Shown here in pieces: positions 1,178 through 27,310 of a DNA stretch of 64,000 nt (its first letter is position 1; the number at the start of each line of letters is the position of its first letter). The DNA lies in assembly GCF_002077075.2 (NCBI RefSeq), contig NZ_LCWM02000002.1, positions 1 through 64,000 on the forward strand, written 5' to 3'. Source of the DNA: Thermoproteus sp. CP80 (GTDB lineage: Archaea > Thermoproteota > Thermoprotei > Thermoproteales > Thermoproteaceae). The translations under genes were made by a program, and so were the position numbers. Below the pieces are notes generated by a model that worked only from the letters and a program-made list of their open reading frames with translations, was not told the DNA's origin and did no database searches.

Positions 1178-2128
1178 TCACAACGAGGATACGACGTCGC
1201 GGGCCCAGATATGGTAGAGGCCCTTCAGGTGCACGAGCGGCGTGCCGGTGACCATCCTGTAGGTCAGCCACCTCTTGAAGGAGTCGGCGTCGGTCTGGGA
1301 GCTCCACTCGTCGGGAGATATGTCGATATACCCCCTGCTGATCTCCGACGCTATGGCCTGCGCCACGATCGAGGCCTGCCAGAGGGATCCCCAGCCGATG
1401 GGCGGAAGGCCCAGCTTCAGCAGGGCCGAGTCGCCTATTAGGTACACGCGGTCGTACTGCGTCTCCAAGGTCTCCGGCCTTAAGTCGAGGCCTGCGGCGA
1501 GGGGGTGGGGCCTGACCGCCGGCACGGAGATGTGCAGCTCGTCGACGGCCTTATGGGACGGCGGGTCGTCGGTCACCTCGACGCCCGCCTCCTTGGCCTT
1601 GGCCTTCCAGGGCTCCAGCAGGAATTGATAGTCGTCGGAGACGTAGACCAGGTGGATCGACACCTCCTTGTCGGGGAATCTGGTCTTTACGGCGTAGGCC
1701 ATCTCCTGGAACCCTATCACCGGCGTGAACTCGCTCACCACGAACCGCACCGCCTTGGCCTTCTTCATGAGCCCGTACAGCTTCTCGGAGCCCTCGACGC
1801 TCCAGTACTCAGCCGTCCCCAGCTTGTAGGAGCCGGGAGCCAGCACCACGTAGTCGCCGCACGCCGACTGCGAGCTGGACAGCCTGACGCACCCCCCGTC
1901 CAGAGCCACCGCGTGGTCCCAGACGTGCTTAACCCTCCTCATCTGCGTCAAGGGAAATATCAAGTCCTTGAAGTCCACCAGGCCGCCGTACGCCATAGGT
2001 ATGCCTATGACGAATTCGTGCACTGGCTTGGGCTCCACGAGCAGCACCTCGGCCTCAGTCGCCTGGAGGAGCCTATACGCGAAGTAGATCCCGGCTATCC
2101 CTCCGCCCACCACGACAACCCTCCGCAT
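1178..2128 (-). CDS. FAD/NAD(P)-binding oxidoreductase, NDH-2/SQR-like
   Basis: 316-residue flavoprotein related to type II NADH dehydrogenases and sulfide:quinone reductases. The N-terminus VVVVGGGIAGIYFAYRL is a GxGxxG FAD-binding fold followed about 20 residues later by an acidic strand end (VEPKP); YLIGDSALLKLGLPPIGWG near residue 240 is the second FAD contact (GD) region. True SQRs need redox cysteines; this protein has only one Cys (SACGD), so a quinone-linked or other electron-transfer role is likelier than sulfide oxidation. It is also shorter than the usual 370-430 residues. A paralogue lacking the first 20 residues lies at 18738-19625. The ATG is 25 nt downstream of a TATA box. Family sure, substrate unknown. 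Confidence 0.82.
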   Translation of the reverse strand: MRRVVVVGGGIAGIYFAYRLLQATEAEVLLVEPKPVHEFVIGIPMAYGGLVDFKDLIFPLTQMRRVKHVWDHAVALDGGCVRLSSSQSACGDYVVLAPGSYKLGTAEYWSVEGSEKLYGLMKKAKAVRFVVSEFTPVIGFQEMAYAVKTRFPDKEVSIHLVYVSDDYQFLLEPWKAKAKEAGVEVTDDPPSHKAVDELHISVPAVRPHPLAAGLDLRPETLETQYDRVYLIGDSALLKLGLPPIGWGSLWQASIVAQAIASEISRGYIDISPDEWSSQTDADSFKRWLTYRMVTGTPLVHLKGLYHIWARDVVSSL

Positions 2129-16014: not shown

Positions 16015-16026
16015 CGTTGTCGCTTC

Positions 16027-16497
16027 ATGGACCTAGATAGGGATATAGAGCGTTGGGTCAAGAAGCTGGGCCTCAACGTGGTGGTTCCGCCGAACGCCCC
16101 GGAGCCCTTCCATATATCCACGGCGCCTCCGACGGGCATGCCGGTCGTCGACGTTGTGAGGCCCAAGGACGCCGAGTTCTACGTAATAGCCATGGGCATA
16201 GCAGTCCATCCGGACCACAGATCCGCGTTGGCGTCCATGAAGGAGCAGGACAGGAGGAGATTCCTCCTGGAGCTCAAGAGGGCCGTGGCCTCCATGGGGG
16301 TGGACTTCGCCTTCCTTCCGCCTGACGCCGAGATCCCCGACGCCGTCCAGGTCTCGCGGCCCGTCCTCGCGGAGGGGCTCGACGCGCAGAGATTCGTCGA
16401 CGAGTACTACAGGGTCAGGAACGCCGGCCTCCTCGTCATAATCTCCTTCGCCGAGACGTTCAGAAGAGCCGCCGGCCAGACGTCCCTCTACGCATGA
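16027..16497 (+). CDS. Archaeal conserved protein, DUF2299-like
   Basis: 156-residue soluble protein that I place, without certainty, in the archaeal DUF2299 group: an N-terminal helix (DIERWVKKLGLNVV), a hydrophobic sheet (FYVIAMGIAVHPDH), and a long central helix (RRRFLLELKRAVASMGVDF) ending in a C-terminal sheet. No catalytic motif is evident and the function is unknown. It overlaps the zinc dehydrogenase start by four bases (ATGA), so the two are probably expressed together. Confidence 0.7.
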   Translation: MDLDRDIERWVKKLGLNVVVPPNAPEPFHISTAPPTGMPVVDVVRPKDAEFYVIAMGIAVHPDHRSALASMKEQDRRRFLLELKRAVASMGVDFAFLPPDAEIPDAVQVSRPVLAEGLDAQRFVDEYYRVRNAGLLVIISFAETFRRAAGQTSLYA

Positions 16498-17441
16498 AGG
16501 CGCTCCTTCTCAGAGGCCCGCGCGAGGTCGAGGTGGCGGATCTGCCGGAGCCGGAGCCGCCGGCCGGCTGGAGCCTCGTGAGGACCGAGCTGGCCGGCAT
16601 ATGCGGCACGGACAAGGCCTTCTATCGGGGGACCTACCCCCTCTTCAAGAGGCCGTTGGTGCCCGGCCACGAGGTGGTGGGCGTCGTAGAGGAGGGGCCC
16701 CTAAAGGGGCTGAGGGTTGTGTCGGAGATAAACTTCGCCGACCTGACCTGCGACTACTGCAGATCCGGCCTCTACACGCACTGCCCCTACAAGAAGACGC
16801 TGGGCATAGACTTCGACGGGGGGATGGCCGAGTACTTCGCTGCGCCCAACTACGCGCTCCATCCGTTCGACGGGCCGCCCGAGCTGGGCGTCTTCGTGGA
16901 GCCGTTGGCGGCTGTGCTGAACGCGTTCGCCATACGCCCTCTGAGGCCCGGCGAAAGGGTCGCCGTGATAGGCGTCGGCAACATGGCCCTCCTCGCGGTC
17001 CAGGTGTTGAGGCTTCTCGGCGCCTCGGAGGTGGCCGTGGTCGCGAGGCGGGAGAGCAGAAGGCTTAAAGCCCTCGAGAGGCTCGCCGACGCGACGTACA
17101 TAGGCGAGGCGCCCGCATCCCGCTTCGACCTGGTCTTCGAGGCGTCCGGCGACCCCAGGGCCCTCGACGTTGCGGTGTCCGCCGCGAGGCCCCGCGGAGC
17201 GGTGCATCTTAAGTCCACGCCTGGCTCGCCTGCCGCCTTCAACTCCACTCTGGCGGTCGTCAAAGAGGTGGCGATAGTGGGCAGCCGCTGCGGCACCTTC
17301 AGGGAGTTCAGGGAGGCGATGGCCCCCCTCCTCTCGGGCAAAGTCAAGCCGGCGCTGGACGCCGTATATCCCCTGGAGGAGGGGCGGAGGGCCTTCGAGG
17401 AGTCGCAGGGCGACGTCTTCAAGATCGCCGTGAGGCCTTGA
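16494..17441 (+). CDS. Zinc-containing medium-chain alcohol dehydrogenase
   Basis: 315-residue MDR dehydrogenase. ELAGICGTDKAFYRG carries the catalytic zinc Cys, VPGHEVVGVVEEG the catalytic His-Glu, and VAVIGVGNMALLAVQVLRLLG is the Rossmann GxGxxG for NAD(P). The structural zinc lobe is reduced to three Cys (CDYCRSGLYTHC), so that zinc may be bound by another residue or missing. Short for the family (usually 340-350) but open from start to end. Candidate substrates are sugars or polyols such as those used by glucose or threonine dehydrogenases; a second member of the family lies at 56407-57447. Confidence 0.88.
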   Translation: MKALLLRGPREVEVADLPEPEPPAGWSLVRTELAGICGTDKAFYRGTYPLFKRPLVPGHEVVGVVEEGPLKGLRVVSEINFADLTCDYCRSGLYTHCPYKKTLGIDFDGGMAEYFAAPNYALHPFDGPPELGVFVEPLAAVLNAFAIRPLRPGERVAVIGVGNMALLAVQVLRLLGASEVAVVARRESRRLKALERLADATYIGEAPASRFDLVFEASGDPRALDVAVSAARPRGAVHLKSTPGSPAAFNSTLAVVKEVAIVGSRCGTFREFREAMAPLLSGKVKPALDAVYPLEEGRRAFEESQGDVFKIAVRP

Positions 17442-17477
17442 GGCGAAACCTAGATAAATCCGGACCCAGATCGCAGA

Positions 17478-18788
17478 ATGCGCCCCTGGCTTCCGCTCCT
17501 GTTGCTGTCGGCGTTGGCGCTTGCGGCCTCCGTACAGATCCAGGTGGTTGACGGCTCCACGGGCCGCCTGTTGAACGGCTCCATGGTGATGGTCTGGCAA
17601 GGCGGCGAGCTGGTCTACGTCGGCTACGGAAGCCCCACCCTGGATCTAGCCCCCGGCACCTACCTGGTGGAGATATACGCCTTCAACGCCTGGTTTAACC
17701 AGACCATATCGGTGCCCGGCGCGAACCCCATACGGATAGTGATCCCCACGGCGCTCCTCTACGCGAGGGCTTGGGACATGGCGGCTGGGAAATACGCCGA
17801 CAGCTGGACCGTGGAGATCCTGGGCCCCGACAACGCGACGCTGGCCGCAGGCCGCGGTGTCGCCGAGGCCGAGGTCGTGGCGACCGGAGCTCAGTACAGA
17901 GCGGCCGCCGTCACGCCCTACGGAGTCCTCTACGGCGATTGGACGACGCCGCAGCCGGGACAGAACTTGACGCTGGTGGTGCAGGTGCCCACGGCCTTCC
18001 TGCAGCTGGAGGCCTACGACGTAGCCCTGGGGAAGCCGGCCAACTTCACCGTACGGATCAGCGGAAACGGCGTGGAGGCCTACGGCGTCGGCGCCGTCCG
18101 GCGGGAGCTCCTGGCGGGCCGATACGACGTCTCGGTGGTCGCGAATCTGAGCGGAGGCGTCTTCAGCTACGACACGACCGTGTCGCTGGAGCCCGGCGAG
18201 AACCGCTCTGAAGTCCTGCGGGTGCCCACGGCGGTCCTCTACCTGTACGCGCAGACGCCGACGGGCTCGCCGATCCCGAACGCCACGATACTTCTCTACG
18301 GAGGCGGGCGGTTGCTGGTCAACGCCACCGGCCCCTCGGTCGCGGCCGAGGTGTTGGGCGGGCAGACGTACACCGCCGTCGCCCGCTACCGCAACATGAC
18401 CGCGACGGTCGACGTGGCCGTCGAGCCCGGCGCCAGATTGCCCGTATATCTCAACCTATCCGCCGCGGTCGGGGCTACGATCAGAGTGACGCCGCAGCCC
18501 GCCACGTCGACGTCCGCATCCAGCGCGGCGACAAGCACGGCGAGCGCGACAGCAGGGCCGCGGACGGCGGCCGCAAAGGCTACCACAGCGGCGCCCGCCG
18601 CAACGACCACCGCCGCGGCGCCTCGGCCCCCTCCCGCCGCGTCGTCGCTCTGGGCCTTGTTCATGGCGGCCGCGGGGGCCTTGGCGTTGGCTCTGGCGCT
18701 GGCCCTGCTCGCCTTGGTCGCGATGGCGGGGAGGAGGTTAAAGGCTTCCGAAGATCTTGGTCCTCCAGAGGTCGTAGAGGCCGCGTAG
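17478..18788 (+). CDS. Secreted, membrane-anchored repeat protein
   Basis: 436-residue surface protein: signal peptide (PWLPLLLLSALALAAS), then about four repeats of a carboxypeptidase-regulatory/PEGA-like beta sandwich, each with a 'VPTAxLxLxAxD' strand (IPTALLYARAWD, VPTAFLQLEAYD, VPTAVLYLYAQT), many N-x-S/T sites, a Thr/Ala-rich stalk (about residues 340-390), and a C-terminal membrane helix with basic stop (MAGRRLK). This is the build of archaeal cell-surface or S-layer-associated proteins; the ligand is unknown. A TATA-like box at about 17450-17459 fixes ATG 17478. The last 51 nt overlap the convergent flavoprotein fragment. Confidence 0.8.
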   Translation: MRPWLPLLLLSALALAASVQIQVVDGSTGRLLNGSMVMVWQGGELVYVGYGSPTLDLAPGTYLVEIYAFNAWFNQTISVPGANPIRIVIPTALLYARAWDMAAGKYADSWTVEILGPDNATLAAGRGVAEAEVVATGAQYRAAAVTPYGVLYGDWTTPQPGQNLTLVVQVPTAFLQLEAYDVALGKPANFTVRISGNGVEAYGVGAVRRELLAGRYDVSVVANLSGGVFSYDTTVSLEPGENRSEVLRVPTAVLYLYAQTPTGSPIPNATILLYGGGRLLVNATGPSVAAEVLGGQTYTAVARYRNMTATVDVAVEPGARLPVYLNLSAAVGATIRVTPQPATSTSASSAATSTASATAGPRTAAAKATTAAPAATTTAAAPRPPPAASSLWALFMAAAGALALALALALLALVAMAGRRLKASEDLGPPEVVEAA

Positions 18789-19625
18789 ATGCACTAGAGG
18801 CACGCCTTTGGTCATCCTGTAGGTTAGATACTGCTTGAACTTATCGGGGTCCTTCATGTAGGTCCATTCGTCTATCTCCACCTCGGCCGCGCCCTCCTTT
18901 ATGTCGCTCACTATGGCCTGGGCCAGCACCGACGCCTGCCATATGGCGCCCCAGCCCAGGGGCGGGAGCCCCAGCTTCATGAGGGAGGTGTCGCCTATGA
19001 GGTAGGTGCGGTCGTACTGTGTCTCGAACAGCGGGCCGACCTTGAGGCCTTTCGTCAGCGGATGGGGGTTGAGCTCGGGCACCACCACGTGTATCTCCGC
19101 CTTGTCTTCGGTGGGCGGCGGCTCCTCGCTCAATGATATGCCCAGTTTAGCCATCTGGGCGCTGAAGGTCTCGAACAGCCACTTGTAGTCGGGGTGGACG
19201 TAGACCAGATGTATCGACACCTCCTTCTGGGGCCAGAGGGATTTCACGGCCATCGCGACCTCGCCGAACCCCATGACCGGGTAGAGCTCGTCGATTACGA
19301 ACCTCACGGCGGGCGCCGTCTCGGCGGCTCTGTAGAGGGCCTCGGCGCCCTCCACCGAGTAGAAATCGTCGCCTATCTTGAACGCGCCGACAGCCAGCAC
19401 GTTGTAGTCGCCTCTGATCACCTCGCCGCTGGCCAGCTTCAGCCCGCTTTCCCTGACGTCGGCGACCTCGTCCCTTACGTGCTCCACGCGCTTTAAGGAG
19501 TCCAGCGACATGCGTAGATCGTCGAACTTGACCAAGCCCGCGAAGGCCATGGGTATGCCCATCACGAACTCGTGATAGGGCTTGGGGTCGACGAGATAGA
19601 CCTTGACGTCGTCTAGAGCCGTCAC
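18738..19625 (-). pseudogene. NDH-2/SQR-like flavoprotein missing its N-terminus
   Basis: Paralogue of the gene at 1178-2128, aligned over its full remaining length (for example YLIGDTSLMKLGLPPLGWG against YLIGDSALLKLGLPPIGWG). It begins only at VKVYLVDPKPYHEF, that is, after the position of the GxGxxG FAD loop, which is absent. Upstream in frame there is a stop (TGA) within 25 nt, and that DNA belongs to the equally truncated EamA gene on the other strand. Without the dinucleotide loop the product should not bind FAD, so I treat it as a pseudogene, though the rest of the frame (295 codons) is intact, which points to a recent loss. Confidence 0.75.
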
Positions 19626-19631
19626 TATCTT

Positions 19632-20278
19632 GTGTATATGCCGCGCTCAGCGGCGTCCTCTCGCTCGCGTTGGGCGACTCGCTCTACCTCAAGGCGCTCA
19701 GGACGGCGGGCGTCTCGCTGGCGGTTCCCGCCGCCTACAGCTACGTGATCTTGGAGCAGTTTGTCGCCGTGTTGCTGGGCGAGCCCCTGAAGGCCGCATA
19801 CCTGGCGGCGGCCGGCCTGACGGTCGCCGGCGTCTACCTCCTCGTGGCTGGGCACGACAGGGGGAGCCTCGGCGGCGTCCTCTACGCTCTGGGCGCCGCG
19901 GCGGCCTGGTCGGCGGGATACGCGGCGGTGAAGGTGGCGGGGGTGGGGGGCCTGAGCCCCATATCCATAGCCTTCGTCCGCGTGGCGGCCGCGCTCCCCG
20001 TCCTGGCGTCCCTCGCCGGATCTGGGGTCGTCAGGGGGATGAGGTCCACCTGGAGGACCGCCCTGCCCGCGATAGCGGTGCTGGACCTCGGGGGCGGCTC
20101 CGCCCTATTCGCCTACTCGGCCGTCGAGGCGGGCCTCGACCTTACGGTCATAGTGCTGGGCGTGACGCCCACAGCGTCTCAGCTCATGTCGAGGGCTCTG
20201 GGCAGAGAGAGGCCGGCGGCGAGGGAGTACTCGGCCGCCGCGTTGATCCTTCTGGCCATAGCCATATCGTTTATATAG
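19632..20278 (+). pseudogene. EamA/DMT-family transporter missing its N-terminus
   Basis: The frame reads YAALSGVLSLALGDSLYLKA, AYSYVILEQFVAVLLGEPL and a second EamA repeat starting GGVLYALGAAAAWSAGYAA. Intact DMT transporters have ten helices and about 290 residues; here the first two or more helices are lost and homology begins right at the junction with the truncated flavoprotein (about 19630). No TATA box or good start precedes it; TTG 19670 is the first plausible start and would give 202 residues. The remaining frame is undamaged. Confidence 0.72.
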
Positions 20279-20294
20279 CCTGGACGGCCCGCCC

Positions 20295-21128
20295 GTGTTG
20301 ATCGAGAGGCTTTATAGGGACCTGCCCCGCAACCTCCGCCTGTTCGAGCGGGCTCTCTCCCTGGAGAAGGAGATCTACGGAGATACGTACGTATCATCTA
20401 GGGCGGTGGCCGAGGCCCTCCTGTGCCCCAGAGCCGCCGCATTTCGAGCCGCCGAGGAGGAGGTGGAGGTCTTCGCAAGGGCCCTGAGGGACAGGGTCAA
20501 ATACGCCGCCATGCTGGGCGTGGCCGACGCGGGCTACGTCGACGCTCTGGCCAGGAGGGCGATGCGCGGCGACCGGAACGCCGTTAAGGCTCTGCTGCGC
20601 GTGGGCAGGGATCTCGGGCCCGGCGACATATCGGCTGTCCTGCCTAAGCTCAAGGAGGAGTTCGAGGCGGCGAGGAGAGCCGCCGGGAAGGTGATAGTCT
20701 CTGCCGCCAGAGGGCCCGTGAGGAGGGCGGCGGCCTACGTGAAATATGCCGAGGTCTACCCGTACGCCGGGATGGGCCATAGATATGGAGACCACGTGTT
20801 CTACGCGGTGGCCGGCGTGGGTCCGGACCACGTCTACCTCTTCAGGCTTGCGAGAAGCCGAGATAGAGGCAGGAGGCTCGCGTTGGCAGAAGGCGACGTG
20901 GCCGCAGCGGCCTTTAGGAAAAACAACATAAAGCTTCATATATATGTGCCGGAGGAGGCTATATACTCCTTCTCCGAGAGGCCGTCGGACCCCACGCCTA
21001 GGTATAGGGCCTTGATCGAAGGCGTATGTAGACCCGGCGCAACCTGCGCGTTCTGCAGATATAGGGAGGTGTGCGAATGCGTCGGAGATATCCCGCGGCG
21101 TCGTCACGCCGGCTCACAGAAGCCGTGA
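20295..21128 (+). CDS. Cas4-like (RecB-family) protein with Fe-S cysteines
   Basis: 277 residues with the cysteine layout of Cas4/Csa1 nucleases: a single early Cys (SSRAVAEALLCPRAAAFRA) and a C-terminal cluster CRPGATCAFCRYREVCEC that would hold a 4Fe-4S cluster. The nuclease core is unconvincing: after GHRYGDHVFYAV the expected E-x-K strand reads VYLFRLARS, so activity may be lost or very diverged. There are no other cas genes or repeats in the window. GTG 20295 lies 22 nt after TTTATATAG (about 20269-20277). It could be a stand-alone Cas4-like repair nuclease; the family link rests on the cysteines. Confidence 0.62.
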   Translation: MLIERLYRDLPRNLRLFERALSLEKEIYGDTYVSSRAVAEALLCPRAAAFRAAEEEVEVFARALRDRVKYAAMLGVADAGYVDALARRAMRGDRNAVKALLRVGRDLGPGDISAVLPKLKEEFEAARRAAGKVIVSAARGPVRRAAAYVKYAEVYPYAGMGHRYGDHVFYAVAGVGPDHVYLFRLARSRDRGRRLALAEGDVAAAAFRKNNIKLHIYVPEEAIYSFSERPSDPTPRYRALIEGVCRPGATCAFCRYREVCECVGDIPRRRHAGSQKP

Positions 21129-21240
21129 CGGCCCCTCCCGGCGCGTCGCTGTAAGTCCGGCGGCGGGGCTATTTATCTATTTCCGGCGGCAGGCCGCCGT
21201 CCGTGTTGCGGACGAAAAACCTAGCCCCTCAGGGCGGGCG

Positions 21241-22386
21241 TCAGTCTACCTCCCTTAGGTACTTGAGGAATATATAGCCTGCGGCGGCGACGAATGCGCC
21301 GGCTATCGGCATCAGTAGAGCAGGCCCCGCCTCTATCAAGTAGCCGGCCGCGGCGGCGCTGGGCGTGGCGGCCATGCGCATAGATATGCTTGCGAGCGCG
21401 GGCGTCGTCGCCTCGCCCCCCTCGGCAGCGGCCCCCGATATGTAGGAGGATCGGGCCGTGCCCCCTATGCCGACCATGGCGTTATAAAGGGCGTAGATCG
21501 CGGCGAACGCGGCAGGGTGGGGGATGAGGGGCAGGACGGCCAGGAGGGCGCCTGAGGCGAATCTGCTGGCCGCGGAGGCCTTGACCAAGCCGAGCAGTCT
21601 AACGAAGACGTGGGCGAATAGGGCTGATAGAGAGAACGCGGCGTTGCCTATCGCGTATATCACAGCTATTAGCGCCGGCCCCATCCCGAGGTATGTATTC
21701 ATCCAGAGGGAGAGGAGGGAGTTTGACAGACCGATCCCCACCCCCGCCACCAGCTGGCTTAGGGAATAGGCCAGGACCGTGGCGCCCCTCTTCTTCACTG
21801 CCCTGAACGGATTCGCCCGCCGGACGGTCTCGCCGCGGCCTAGGGACAGCAGGACCAGCGCGGCGGCCGTGGAGACGGAGAGGACGAAGAAGAGGGAGGC
21901 CTCCCGCAGGGCCGTGAAGGCGACGAGCAGAGACCCGGCGATTCCGCCGGCGGTGGACAGGAGGTTTACAATCCCCAGATCGCGCGTCCTCTCCACCGCG
22001 TTTGACGTATGGCGGCGTACCAAGGCCATTATCAGGGGGACGAAGCTGCCCCGCGTAGAGCCGGGGCCCAGCATGCCGACCCCGCCGATCCCCAGGGCGA
22101 TGCCGACGGCCCAGGGGTTTCTGTACGCCGCTATGGCCACAAGCGCGGACGCGAAGGCGACCTCGCTGACGGCGAGGCCTCTCGCATGCCCTATCACGTC
22201 GCCGAGGGCCGCGTAGAGGATGGACGTGCCCAGGGATATGAGGCCGGCCGCGGTGACCACCAGCCCGGCCGCAAGCGCGCTGCCGGTGAGCTCCTTGAGG
22301 TACAACGGCACGACGACGGCCAGATAGCCCGTGGCCAAATTCCTCAGGAACCTCTCCAGGCCTATGGCCAAAAGGTACCTCTTCAC
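21241..22386 (-). CDS. MFS transporter
   Basis: 381-residue permease with about twelve hydrophobic helices and the MFS organisation: LERFLRNLATGYLAVVVPLY at the start, a loop-2 motif GDVIGHARG of the GxxxDRxGRR class, and a central break at VRRANPFRAVKKRG between the two halves. The substrate is not evident; drug or sugar export are usual guesses. The GTG start is 25 nt after a TATA-like TTTTTAAAACG at about 22406-22416. Confidence 0.88.
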   Translation of the reverse strand: MKRYLLAIGLERFLRNLATGYLAVVVPLYLKELTGSALAAGLVVTAAGLISLGTSILYAALGDVIGHARGLAVSEVAFASALVAIAAYRNPWAVGIALGIGGVGMLGPGSTRGSFVPLIMALVRRHTSNAVERTRDLGIVNLLSTAGGIAGSLLVAFTALREASLFFVLSVSTAAALVLLSLGRGETVRRANPFRAVKKRGATVLAYSLSQLVAGVGIGLSNSLLSLWMNTYLGMGPALIAVIYAIGNAAFSLSALFAHVFVRLLGLVKASAASRFASGALLAVLPLIPHPAAFAAIYALYNAMVGIGGTARSSYISGAAAEGGEATTPALASISMRMAATPSAAAAGYLIEAGPALLMPIAGAFVAAAGYIFLKYLREVD

Positions 22387-22463
22387 GTCCCGATATGTCG
22401 GTACGTTTTAAAAATGTTGAGCCGCGCCGGCCAACGTATTTATCCTCCGGATACCGGCGGCTT

Positions 22464-22538
22464 GTGGACAGTGGGGACGCGGCCGCCGATATCTTCGCCT
22501 GCGCGTTGGGCATAGCTCGTAGGTCCTCGACCGCATGA
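22464..22538 (+). CDS. Tiny leaderless upstream ORF coupled to trm14
   Basis: GTG-started frame of 24 codons (VDSGDAADIFACALGIARR and four more residues) whose stop overlaps the ATG of the next gene as ATGA. A TATA-like GTATTTAT (about 22436-22443) is centred 24 nt before the GTG, so the transcript would begin at this codon, not at trm14 itself, which has no TATA box at the usual spacing. I infer a small protein or a translational entry point; similarity is unknown. Confidence 0.45.
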   Translation: MDSGDAAADIFACALGIARRSSTA

Positions 22539-23524
22539 GGTACCTGCTGACGACGGTACAGGGGCTGGAGGACGTCGTCGTGGAGGAGGTGGTCGAGAGG
22601 CTCGGGGCGTCGTCGGCGCGTTCGGCCTACATGAGCGGCCGGGTGGTGGTGGAGGCCGACGTGGCTCCCTCCGCTCTGCTCGCGCTCCGCTCCGTGGAGA
22701 GATTCGGCGTTTTCCTAACCTCCGGCGCGTTCTCGGCGCTGGGGGATATAGCGGATGGGGTGAGGGCAGTCCTGCCCGAGGTGCTCTCCTACGTATCGCC
22801 CCACGTGACGGCCGGCGTCGCCTGCGAGAGGGCTGGGTCGCATCCGTTCACCTCCAGGGATGTGGAGTCGGCGGTGGGGTCCCTGCTGAAGGAGGCCGGG
22901 GTCGCCATAAGCCTGGTGGACCCCGACATCGAGCTCAACGTCGACGTGATAGGAGACGCCTACTACGTCTGGCTGACCTCGGCGAGGAGGTCCCTCAAGG
23001 ATAGGCCCTACCGTAGGTATCAGCACTACGCGTCCCTCAACCCGGTGGTGGCCTACGCCATGGCCAGGCTGGCGCGGCTGAAGGACGGCGAGACGTTGTG
23101 CGACTTGACCTGCGGAGGGGGGACCATATGCCTGGAGGCCTCGTCGGTAGCCCGCGTCAGATGCATCTGCGTCGACGTGGCGCTAAGGCACGTCAAAGGC
23201 GCCCTCGAGAACCTCTCGGCGGCTGGCGCCGACGCGGACGTCCTGTGGTTCGACTCCACCAAGCTCCACAGGGCGCTCCGCCCAGTCTGCGACGCCTTCA
23301 TCTTCAATCCCCCCTACGGCGTCCGCATCCCCGCCGATATCCACAAGCTTTATAGAGGGCTGGTGAGGACGATGGAGCTCCTGGCGAGGCCGGGGGCCCG
23401 GCTGGCGGTCGTGACCCCCAGGTGGCGGGCCTTCCTCAAGTATTTCCGCGGCGAGATCCTGGAGAGGCGGGTTATATACCAAGGAGGCATCTACAGCTCC
23501 ATAATACTGGGAAGAGTTAAATAG
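22535..23524 (+). CDS. trm14: tRNA guanine-N2 methyltransferase, Trm14-like (THUMP)
   Basis: 329-residue RNA methyltransferase: an N-terminal ferredoxin-like plus THUMP region (LLTTVQGLEDVVVEEVVERL; about residues 1-150) and a Rossmann methylase (LCDLTCGGGTICLEASSV, motif I; FIFNPPYGVRI, motif IV with the NPPY of N-methylases). This combination is that of Trm14/TrmN, which makes N2-methylguanosine at position 6 of tRNA; the related Trm11 (position 10) is the main alternative. Its start overlaps a 24-codon upstream ORF. The next gene begins 18 nt after its stop and takes its TATA box from its last codons. Confidence 0.85.
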   Translation: MRYLLTTVQGLEDVVVEEVVERLGASSARSAYMSGRVVVEADVAPSALLALRSVERFGVFLTSGAFSALGDIADGVRAVLPEVLSYVSPHVTAGVACERAGSHPFTSRDVESAVGSLLKEAGVAISLVDPDIELNVDVIGDAYYVWLTSARRSLKDRPYRRYQHYASLNPVVAYAMARLARLKDGETLCDLTCGGGTICLEASSVARVRCICVDVALRHVKGALENLSAAGADADVLWFDSTKLHRALRPVCDAFIFNPPYGVRIPADIHKLYRGLVRTMELLARPGARLAVVTPRWRAFLKYFRGEILERRVIYQGGIYSSIILGRVK

Positions 23525-23542
23525 GGGCCCGGCCGCCGTGGC

Positions 23543-24688
23543 GTGCTGGCGCTGGCGGCCTTCCTGGCGGCTGTAGCGCTGGTCATCTGGGGCACCTTGA
23601 CGAGGAGGCTGGACGTGTCGATAACTCTGCCGCTGGGCGCTGTCCTCTACGGGGCGCTGGCCCTCGGCCCCTCGGCCGGCCGGGCCGCGCTGGCTGCGTT
23701 CAACTACTCCATGTTCGAGGTCCTCGCGTCGCTGGTGTTGGCCATGGCGCTCGGCTATCTGATGAGGTCCAGGAGGGAGGCGATAGCCAGCGGGTTGACT
23801 GCCGTTGGGCCTAGATTTGCGGCATTCGCGATTCCGGCCGCAATAGGCCTCCTCCCCATGCCCGGCGGCGCCTACGTATCGGCCGTCGTCGCGGATCCCC
23901 TCTACAGATATATGGGTCTGGAGAGCGACGAAAGGACGTTCCTGAACTACTGGATGCGCCATATATGGGTGCCCGTGTGGCCCCTATTCCAGGGCGTGTT
24001 GATAACGTCGGCAGTCCTCTCCGAGCCCGTGACGAGGGTCGTATCGTGGTCTTGGCCAGCCAGCGTCGCGGCAGTCGCCGCCGGCGTTGCCATCGGCGCC
24101 TCCCGCGTGAGGCGGACGCAGATGGGCGGAAGGCTGAGAGATGCGGCGGCGCTCTGGCCTCTCGCGGCAGTCGCCGCGTTGTCGCTCCTCTTGCCCATAT
24201 ATGCCGCCGTCGCCGTCACCCTCGCCGCGTTCACGCTGGCGTACAGAACGCCCGCGCGGGATGTGGCCGCCGCCTTCAGATATGCGCTGACGCCGCGGAT
24301 AATCGCCATAATAATATCCTCCCTCGTCTTCTCCGAGTACATCAGGGAGAGCGGCTTTGGGCAAGCCCTCGCGGGTTATCTAGGCGGGGCCGCTCTGTTG
24401 GCGGTCTTCGCGGTGCCTCTGCTCATTGGGATAGCCACCGGCCTGGAGTTCACCTTCGCCGGGCTTGCGTTCCCCCCGCTGAGCCCGTTGCTTCACGGCT
24501 ATAACCTATCCCTTGCGTTTATGGGGGGCTTCCTGGGGGTCATGTTGAGCCCGGCCCACAGCTGCTTGGTGCTGACGCTCGACTACTACAAATCGGACGC
24601 GCGCAAGGTCTACGGACTTCTGGCGAGGGCCGCTGCCGTCGCGGCCGCGGTCGCCGCATCGCTGTACGCGGCGTTGGCCCCATTCTGA
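23543..24688 (+). CDS. DUF401-family membrane protein
   Basis: 381 residues, about ten membrane helices. The motifs GLLPMPGGAYVSAVVADPL and MLSPAHSCLVLTLDYY are those of the DUF401 family, anion-permease-like proteins found in archaea and some bacteria; the transported compound is not known. GTG 23543 is 24 nt after AGTTAAATAGG, a box that lies over the last codons of trm14. Confidence 0.85.
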   Translation: MLALAAFLAAVALVIWGTLTRRLDVSITLPLGAVLYGALALGPSAGRAALAAFNYSMFEVLASLVLAMALGYLMRSRREAIASGLTAVGPRFAAFAIPAAIGLLPMPGGAYVSAVVADPLYRYMGLESDERTFLNYWMRHIWVPVWPLFQGVLITSAVLSEPVTRVVSWSWPASVAAVAAGVAIGASRVRRTQMGGRLRDAAALWPLAAVAALSLLLPIYAAVAVTLAAFTLAYRTPARDVAAAFRYALTPRIIAIIISSLVFSEYIRESGFGQALAGYLGGAALLAVFAVPLLIGIATGLEFTFAGLAFPPLSPLLHGYNLSLAFMGGFLGVMLSPAHSCLVLTLDYYKSDARKVYGLLARAAAVAAAVAASLYAALAPF

Positions 24689-24713
24689 GAAAAGATTATA
24701 TACACATGCCCGG

Positions 24714-26279
24714 ATGCGTGCGGTGGGGAAATATGTAGCCGATATCTCCGTCATCCTGGACGGCTCGCTTAAGGAGGCCGTCATCTCCGGCAACATCAGG
24801 GGGACCCTCTTCCTCCTGGAGGAGGCCGTCGACTACCTGGAGCGGCTCGCCAGGCAAGGCGACGGCGTCGGGCTGGTGGGGGTCGAGGAGCTCAAGGACC
24901 TCAGGACCTCCCTGGAGAAGCTGGGGCTGTCGGAGCTGGTCCGCGTCGAGTACGTCCAGGCCGGGCGCCGCCAGGCCGAGCCGGAGGAGATGCCCTCCCT
25001 GGTCAGGAAGTTCGCGAGGGAGAACGGCGCCGTGGTGGTGACCAGCGACCCCTTCCTCAGGGACTCGGCCGCGGTTATGGGCTTGGACGTGATGTATCTG
25101 GGGCGGGAGCGGGGGCCGCTTCAGATCGAGCGCTTCTTCGAGAGGGACATAATGTCGGTGCACCTCAAGGAGGGGGCGCCGCCTCAAGCCAAGGCGGGGA
25201 GGCCCGGCAGCTGGCGTCTCGTCAAGCTCTCGGACGAGCCCATGTCGCGGGGGCAGCTGGAGTCCATCGTGCGCGAGCTCATCTCGGAGGCCGCCAAGGG
25301 CGGCGGAGGCACCAAGCTGGAGATAAGGAGGCCCCACTCACTCATAGTGCAGCACAAGGATCTGCGCATAGTGGTCGCCTTTCCGCCCGTCTCGGACGGC
25401 CTGGAGATCACCGCCGTCAAGCCTCTGGTTAGGAGGTCCCTGGAGGACTACAACCTCGACCCCAAGGTGGTGGAGCGTCTGGAGAAGAGCGCAGAGGGTA
25501 TACTCATATCGGGCCCGCCGGGCGCCGGCAAGACCACCTTCGCGCAAGCCCTCGCCGAGTTCTATCTGTCCAAGGGCAAGATCGTGAAGACCGTGGAGTC
25601 GCCTAGGGAGATGATCCTAAGCAGATCCATCACCCAGCTCTCCAAGAACTACGCCACCTCGGAGGAGATCCACGACCTCCTCCTCTTGTCGAGGCCCGAC
25701 TACACCATATTCGATGAGATGAGGGACACGGCCGACTTCCAGCTGTACGTGGACCTCCGCCTGGCCGGCGTGGGGATGGTCGGCGTGGTCCACTCGACGT
25801 CGCCCATAGACGCCGTGCAGAGGTTCGTGAGGAGGGTAGAGCTCGGCATGATACCGTCTATAATAGACACCGTGATCTACATGAAGGACGGAGAGGTCAA
25901 GAAGGTCTACTCCCTCTCCATGACCGTCAAGGTGCCGGCGGGCATGAGGGAGGAGGACCTCTCCAGGCCGGTGGTCGTGGTCAAGGACTTCCTGACGGGC
26001 GAGCCTGAATATGAAATCTACGTATTCGGCGAGGAGACGTTCGTGGTGCCGTTGAGGCGCGGCGAGGGGAGGGCTCCCAGCAAGAAGTTGCTGTCGGCGG
26101 TGGTGTCGGCGCTCAAGCGCTACGTGCCGCCGCAGGAGATAAGGGTTGAGGAGGTCGACGGCGTGGTGGTGGTCAAGGTGCCCGAGGAGTACCTGGCTGT
26201 GGTGGCGTCCCGCGGCGCCGGCAAGCTCGACCGTCTGAGGAGAAGGTTTTCGGTGGACTTCAGAGTCGAGCCTCTGTGA
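24714..26279 (+). CDS. PIN-domain ATPase, PINA-like
   Basis: 521 residues in three parts: an N-terminal PIN domain (YVADISVILDGS, with acidic residues at D-x-S-V and VVVTSDPFLRDSAAV), a VirB11/PilT-like ATPase (GPPGAGKTTFAQ at about residue 266; FDEMRDTADFQLY, Walker B), and a C-terminal KH-type domain (VSALKRYVPPQEIRVEEV). The layout is that of Sulfolobus PINA, a hexameric Holliday-junction branch-migration ATPase that works with the resolvase Hjc. It opens a block of repair genes. GATTATATAC at 24694-24703 would suit the in-frame GTG 24723 better than ATG 24714; both leave the PIN domain whole. Confidence 0.88.
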   Translation: MRAVGKYVADISVILDGSLKEAVISGNIRGTLFLLEEAVDYLERLARQGDGVGLVGVEELKDLRTSLEKLGLSELVRVEYVQAGRRQAEPEEMPSLVRKFARENGAVVVTSDPFLRDSAAVMGLDVMYLGRERGPLQIERFFERDIMSVHLKEGAPPQAKAGRPGSWRLVKLSDEPMSRGQLESIVRELISEAAKGGGGTKLEIRRPHSLIVQHKDLRIVVAFPPVSDGLEITAVKPLVRRSLEDYNLDPKVVERLEKSAEGILISGPPGAGKTTFAQALAEFYLSKGKIVKTVESPREMILSRSITQLSKNYATSEEIHDLLLLSRPDYTIFDEMRDTADFQLYVDLRLAGVGMVGVVHSTSPIDAVQRFVRRVELGMIPSIIDTVIYMKDGEVKKVYSLSMTVKVPAGMREEDLSRPVVVVKDFLTGEPEYEIYVFGEETFVVPLRRGEGRAPSKKLLSAVVSALKRYVPPQEIRVEEVDGVVVVKVPEEYLAVVASRGAGKLDRLRRRFSVDFRVEPL

Positions 26280-26329
26280 GGCGGGCTTGTATGATCGAAA
26301 CCAATATATAATACCCCGCACTCCCCCAT

Positions 26330-27169
26330 GTGGCCGCCGACCAGTATTATCAATACTACGAGGAGAGGACCCCCACGGGCGTCTGGTACATCGATCAGCT
26401 CCTCGGGGGCGGCTTCAAGAGGGGCGAGATCTACCTGATAGCCGGCGAGGCGGGTCAGGGCAAGACCATCTTCAGCCTTCAATTCCTCAAGACAGGCGCC
26501 GAGCTTTACGACGAGCCCGGCCTCTATATCACTGTGGATGAACCCTCCGAGGATGTCAAGAGGGGGGTCAAGTCCTCCTTGGGCTGGGACCTCGACGCGT
26601 TCGAGGAGCAGCAGAAGCTCATCTTCGTGGATCTCAGGACCCACTTCAAGGCCTATTCCCAAAGCGAGAAGGTCGTGGCGGACCCGCGGGAGATAGCGAA
26701 GGTCATCATGGACAACGTGAAGAAGTTCGGCATCAGGAGGCTCGTGGTGGATCCCATAGCGCCTCTTTTGATAACTTCCCACACGGACGTCCTCTGGGTC
26801 AGGGAATACATGAGGGAGCTGGTGTTCCAGCTCAGGAGGCTCAGGGACGTCACGACGGTCATGACCTCCGAGATCCCCACCGGCGAGAACAAGATAAGCA
26901 GATTCGGCGTGGAGGAGTATCTGGCCGGCGGAGTCATCAAGCTGGAGCTACAGGAGTATAGGGGCTTCGTCTTCAGGGTTATGTTCATAAGGAAGATGCG
27001 GTGGACGGCCGTAAGGCCCCAGAAGCTCGTCTTCGAGATATATCCCCAGTACGGCATCTACGTCATAGACCGCCTGGAGAACTTCATGAAGTCCATAGAC
27101 AGGTTCTACTTGGACGTAACGCAGCAATACGGACAACAGGAATACCAGCAGTACGCCCTCGCCAAATAG
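26330..27169 (+). CDS. Single-domain KaiC/RadA-like ATPase
   Basis: 279-residue RecA-superfamily ATPase: LLGGGFKRGEIYLIAGEAGQ precedes GKT of Walker A (about residue 39), and RRLVVDPIAPLL is the Walker B strand. It has one KaiC domain and a Gln/Tyr-rich tail (QQYGQQEYQQYALAK). Archaeal single-domain KaiC proteins have been linked to signalling, motility and, as aRadC, to recombination; its place between PINA and HerA favours a DNA-repair role, which is inference. GTG 26330 follows CAATATATAATA (26302-26313) by 22 nt; the ATG two bases earlier is out of frame. Confidence 0.85.
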   Translation: MAADQYYQYYEERTPTGVWYIDQLLGGGFKRGEIYLIAGEAGQGKTIFSLQFLKTGAELYDEPGLYITVDEPSEDVKRGVKSSLGWDLDAFEEQQKLIFVDLRTHFKAYSQSEKVVADPREIAKVIMDNVKKFGIRRLVVDPIAPLLITSHTDVLWVREYMRELVFQLRRLRDVTTVMTSEIPTGENKISRFGVEEYLAGGVIKLELQEYRGFVFRVMFIRKMRWTAVRPQKLVFEIYPQYGIYVIDRLENFMKSIDRFYLDVTQQYGQQEYQQYALAK

Positions 27170-27310
27170 CCGGGACGCGGACCGCCCGCCGACGGGGCCT
27201 ATAAATCCACGCCAGTCCGGAGGACGCTGGACGCCGGAGGATCCGACGTATATCGTCGCGGCGCGATCGAACACGGCGCTGTCTGCAGACTGAAACAGTA
27301 TAGCCCATGG
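27170..27310. other. Intergenic DNA with an orphan TATA box
   Basis: CTATAAAT at about 27199-27206 (plus) has the quality of the other promoters here, but no start codon or frame follows at 22-27 nt. A transcript from about 27224 would run toward the tRNA 3' end and contains a CTGT...ACAG pairing and a CTGA at 27288-27291. A small RNA is possible; I cannot assign a class. Confidence 0.3.

Follow-up and report, generated by a model that had tools for sequence, protein, structure and literature searches.

Complete EamA transporters consist of two EamA repeats of five helices each, and members of the sulfide:quinone reductase (SQR)/NDH-2 group, which share a two-dinucleotide-binding fold, are 390–430 aa long. 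We analysed a locus in the Thermoproteus assembly G000 (1.56 Mb, 80 contigs, about 77% complete) at which a gene related to each of these families has lost its 5′ end. The window, the whole stretch of DNA that was analysed, comprises 64,000 bases (positions 1–64,000) of contig C7, which is 79,568 bases long. It was compared with five sister genomes of the same genus (G001–G005), of which G005 (1,936,063 bases) is the closest and G002 is assembled as one contig of 1,841,542 bases. A minus-strand SQR/NDH-2-like flavoprotein frame and a plus-strand EamA frame meet head to head at 19634/19635, and the starts of both are gone (Table 1). Comparison with the sister genomes makes it likely that a single non-homologous deletion turned both genes into pseudogenes, and it probably removed a regulator gene as well.

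The flavoprotein stub encodes 295 residues and its frame, which follows a stop, reads ARHIHKIVTALDDVKVY. It aligns with the full-length sister proteins from sister residue 18 on; the G005 orthologue begins with MKSVVIAGGGISGVYLAHKIVSALDDVKVY. Homology starts at HK, residue 18, so that the loss coincides exactly with the FAD beta-strand and the glycine loop: the first 17 codons, MKSVVIAGGGISGVYLA, hold this strand and the whole GxGxxG FAD-binding loop. This loop is present in the orthologues of G005, G002 and G001 and in an intact paralogue elsewhere in the window, so the sequence-only reading was right that the flavoprotein lacks exactly its FAD loop and that the paralogue displays what is missing. 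A protein tree separates two groups: one unites the stub with its orthologues G005a, G001a and G002a, the other contains the paralogue together with G005b, G001b and G002b. No Pfam match was found for the stub, and a full-length orthologue (L029:29-976) matches Pfam NAD_binding_9 and, by sequence, the solved sulfide-quinone reductase 3hyv. For the full-length G002 protein it is the N-terminal FAD domain that resembles known structures, both 3hyv (E=1.4e-11; residues 2–126 only) and the NDH-2-like 5na1/5na4 (E=2e-5). Judged by these matches, the full-length flavoprotein is a short relative of the SQR/NDH-2 group, from which it differs in length (about 316 aa in the sister); the G000 stub differs further in lacking the FAD loop.

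The full-length sister transporter matches two EamA repeats (PF00892), but the G000 copy, whose frame reads VYAALSGVLSLALGDSLYLK, is short of 58–60 N-terminal residues relative to the G005 protein, or about the first two helices, as had been claimed from the sequence. Its first repeat is therefore incomplete, and the best Pfam stretch, residues 80–212, is the second repeat. An IMG/VR search with the transporter stub returned no match. Neither stub contains an internal stop or a frameshift, which agrees with the earlier description of the remaining frames as intact.

Table 1 Features of the locus and the flavoprotein paralogue, in window positions
Feature	Position	Strand	Basis
5′-truncated flavoprotein (SQR/NDH-2-like) gene	18738..19625	-	Sister alignment; first available start GTG 19625
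Deletion junction	19634..19635		BLASTN blocks abut here; lacks 819 bp present in G005; interval lengths from four sister genomes
5′-truncated EamA (DMT) transporter gene	19635..20278	+	Sister alignment (homology from 19634/19635); first available start TTG 19670
Complete flavoprotein paralogue (second orthologous group)	1178..2128	-	Pfam/sequence comparison; protein tree

BLASTN alignment of contig C7 with G005 yields two collinear blocks that abut at the junction, with 16015–19634 corresponding to 653310–656910 and 19634–27176 to 657730–665246. Gene order and orientation on either side are those of G005, and the sole difference is the missing 819 bp. On the left side the G005 match runs to CACTATCTTGTG, and on the right it begins at about GTATATGCC (G005 counterpart, GTGTACGCC). 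The same divergent flavoprotein/EamA pair is present at full length at this locus in G005, G002, G004 and G001, where 819, 572, 268 and 589 bp (the last including an N run), respectively, stand in place of the junction. The full-length copies thus occupy the same locus and are not differently placed, in line with the earlier proposal that one deletion had spanned the divergent promoter. With 268–819 bp in the different sisters, it is uncertain how much DNA was lost. One end of an inversion or translocation that had carried both missing gene heads together to another place would likewise leave two genes broken at a single position, and about 23% of the genome lies outside the assembly. The flanks, however, are collinear with G005 and lack only the gap, and neither the missing DNA nor either gene head has a copy elsewhere in the approximately 77% complete assembly, which leaves such a rearrangement scarcely credible.

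The junction itself points to how a deletion would have arisen. Microhomology amounts to about one base (at most 3 nt), and no direct repeat borders the lost interval, either at its G005 ends or at the G000 junction, and a repeat-mediated deletion was rejected on this ground. With so little overlap and no flanking repeat, the junction type fits a deletion by end joining. The DNA fold of the lost interval reveals no special structure (z-score −0.98).

An assembly artefact would also bring the two frames together, if the full locus were real and the assembler or gap closing had joined two ends over an AT-rich stretch with poor coverage. The interval is indeed strongly AT-rich near EamA in G005, G001 and G003, and the G001 assembly carries a 57-base N run in the same intergenic region, a sign that assembly can be difficult here. 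A second N run on C7, at 73593–74456, suggests that scaffolding was probably done; this run lies beyond the window, within repeated coding sequence similar to G005 711.6–713.8 kb. The undamaged stub frames would also be expected of an artefact, and the deletion is known from one assembled genome of the species, itself incomplete. Against this, no assembly break is visible near 19630: the G000 assembly has no N bases at the junction and no second good match of the junction flanks, the two ends share no word beyond 1–3 nt on which an assembly graph could have collapsed, and the lost DNA is not on another contig. Of about 40 orthologous frames compared between G005 and C7, none but the flavoprotein and EamA genes are cut at a common point, which argues against general misassembly but does not amount to proof. 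A few others of these orthologues are also partly covered relative to G005, which we attribute, without having traced each one, to poorly conserved ends, an N run or unreliable shadow frames. On balance we regard an artefact as unlikely, and infer a genuine deletion that has become fixed in the cells.

The sister genomes also show what lay between the two genes. Besides the promoters of both genes, the 819-bp G005 interval contains the first 17 flavoprotein codons, about 60 EamA codons and a complete gene for a ribbon-helix-helix (RHH/CopG) regulator. The RHH gene lies on the minus strand and encodes 65 aa in G005 (Pfam RHH_1, E=1.6e-9) and 53 aa in G002 (E=9.9e-9), and an RHH-like frame, read from the sequence, adjoins EamA in G003. 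Given these occurrences, the G000 ancestor probably had an RHH gene and lost it in the same deletion. This gene, visible only by sister comparison, probably extends the single-deletion reading to a third gene. Within G000, the closest RHH relative is encoded on a different contig and shares 52% identity. The 268-bp interval of G004 has no room for an RHH gene, and that of G001 holds an apparent remnant only, beside the N run. G003 has no flavoprotein gene at this locus (G003:C1:1361034-1364672, L028), where the RHH-like frame and EamA flank a very AT-rich spacer. Gene loss thus recurs here, with G003 lacking the flavoprotein and G004 the regulator.

The flavoprotein family has itself suffered repeated loss: elsewhere in G003 it comprises one intact copy and two broken ones. 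One of the latter (G003:C1:50072-50949, L089) is split by a frameshift, and the other (G003:C1:1514565-1515413, L091) is decayed, with five stops. This decayed relative also seems to lack the FAD loop region.

Upstream of the flavoprotein start in G005, in the promoter that is lost from G000, GGGATGTGTTCCCTCGGCGCTCCGCAAG lies just 5′ of an AT-rich TATA-like stretch. A near-identical element, spaced similarly from the start codon, precedes the flavoprotein in G001 and, in G000 (contig C34), G001 and G003, an orphan gene of about 87 aa for which no Pfam match was found. On C34, 80 bp match the lost interval; these were considered as a relocated piece and rejected, as they represent this similar upstream element before another gene. 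The element, 28 bp long (GGGATRTGTTCCCTCGGCGCTYCGYAAG), sits directly upstream of the TATA-like stretch (L058:1500-1580 on G000 C34; L083, L080, L081, L084). The element is rare: each of the six genomes has at most one copy of its strict form, and the reversed control does not occur. The flavoprotein and the orphan gene may be listed as a candidate small regulon in several Thermoproteus genomes. A half-element, ATCCCGCATATAAATTTTACGAAGCG, recurs with 81% identity before the G005 RHH gene (L027:782-807 and 1171-1196), and this recurrence suggests a common regulator or autoregulation of the RHH gene. Control of the flavoprotein through this element, whether by the RHH protein or by a different factor, would be a guess. 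A variant of the element is also found in near-identical copies (1 and 3 mismatches) at G005:C1:721794 and 1103380 and at G002:C1:454580, 874990 and 1152398, and these may constitute a repeat family.

To place the deletion in time, we compared both stubs with their G005 orthologues. The dN/dS is 0.103 for the flavoprotein stub and 0.150 for the EamA stub, next to 0.040–0.146 for 14 other genes on the contig, at a dS of about 0.5–0.9. Polarisation with an outgroup places slightly and inconsistently more amino-acid changes on the G000 side of the stubs, and likewise in neighbouring genes, with no clear excess, a pattern to be expected of a recent event. The neighbour-like dN/dS and the undamaged frames support a deletion that is recent relative to the species divergence, most of the divergence having arisen under normal constraint. 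For the same reason these ratios are no proof that the stubs are in use at present, since they mostly record the time before the deletion. The sequence-only reading had left two choices, a recent event or stubs that are still used; the first is upheld by these data, and the second fares poorly with the FAD site, the promoters and the normal starts gone.

Continued use would entail expression from the new starts GTG 19625 and TTG 19670, with changed function. Open frames and the neighbour-like dN/dS would be in keeping with it, as would the TATA-like TGTATATG about 30 nt before TTG 19670. The loss of the fold-defining FAD loop, about two transporter helices and both native promoters weighs against it, as does the age of the dN/dS signal, and we consider it very unlikely. 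That the loop-less flavoprotein has been retained as a non-enzymatic protein, for example in a scaffold or regulatory role, is similarly far-fetched; the decayed G003 relative, seemingly loop-less too, could be a hint that loop loss is a repeated first step. Reasoning from the two families and the lost promoters, we take both stubs to be inactive and any function unlikely.

We therefore favour a single deletion in the following form. The ancestral Thermoproteus locus would have been divergent, with the flavoprotein and a small RHH/CopG-type regulator on the minus strand and the EamA transporter on the plus strand. In the G000 lineage one deletion, probably of 0.5–0.8 kb and made by repeat-free end joining, would have fused flavoprotein codon 18 to about transporter codon 60. 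Neither gene would have kept its start codon or its promoter, and the regulator and the FAD-binding loop would have gone in the same event. The remnants would most likely be untranslated or non-functional pseudogenes, too young to have decayed.

The locus clearly captures gene loss in a hyperthermophilic archaeon at an early stage, at which two genes and a likely regulator have been removed by one repeat-free deletion before decay set in; the event is otherwise ordinary gene loss. Sister species lose different members of the locus, which could help to infer the roles of the flavoprotein, the RHH protein and the transporter. Like prokaryotic pseudogenes made by one short-homology or illegitimate deletion, it has two neighbours truncated at one junction, with at most slight microhomology and otherwise undamaged frames. 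It differs from them in the divergent orientation of the two genes, so that one event has cost both of them their 5′ ends and the regulatory region they shared, probably together with a regulator gene.
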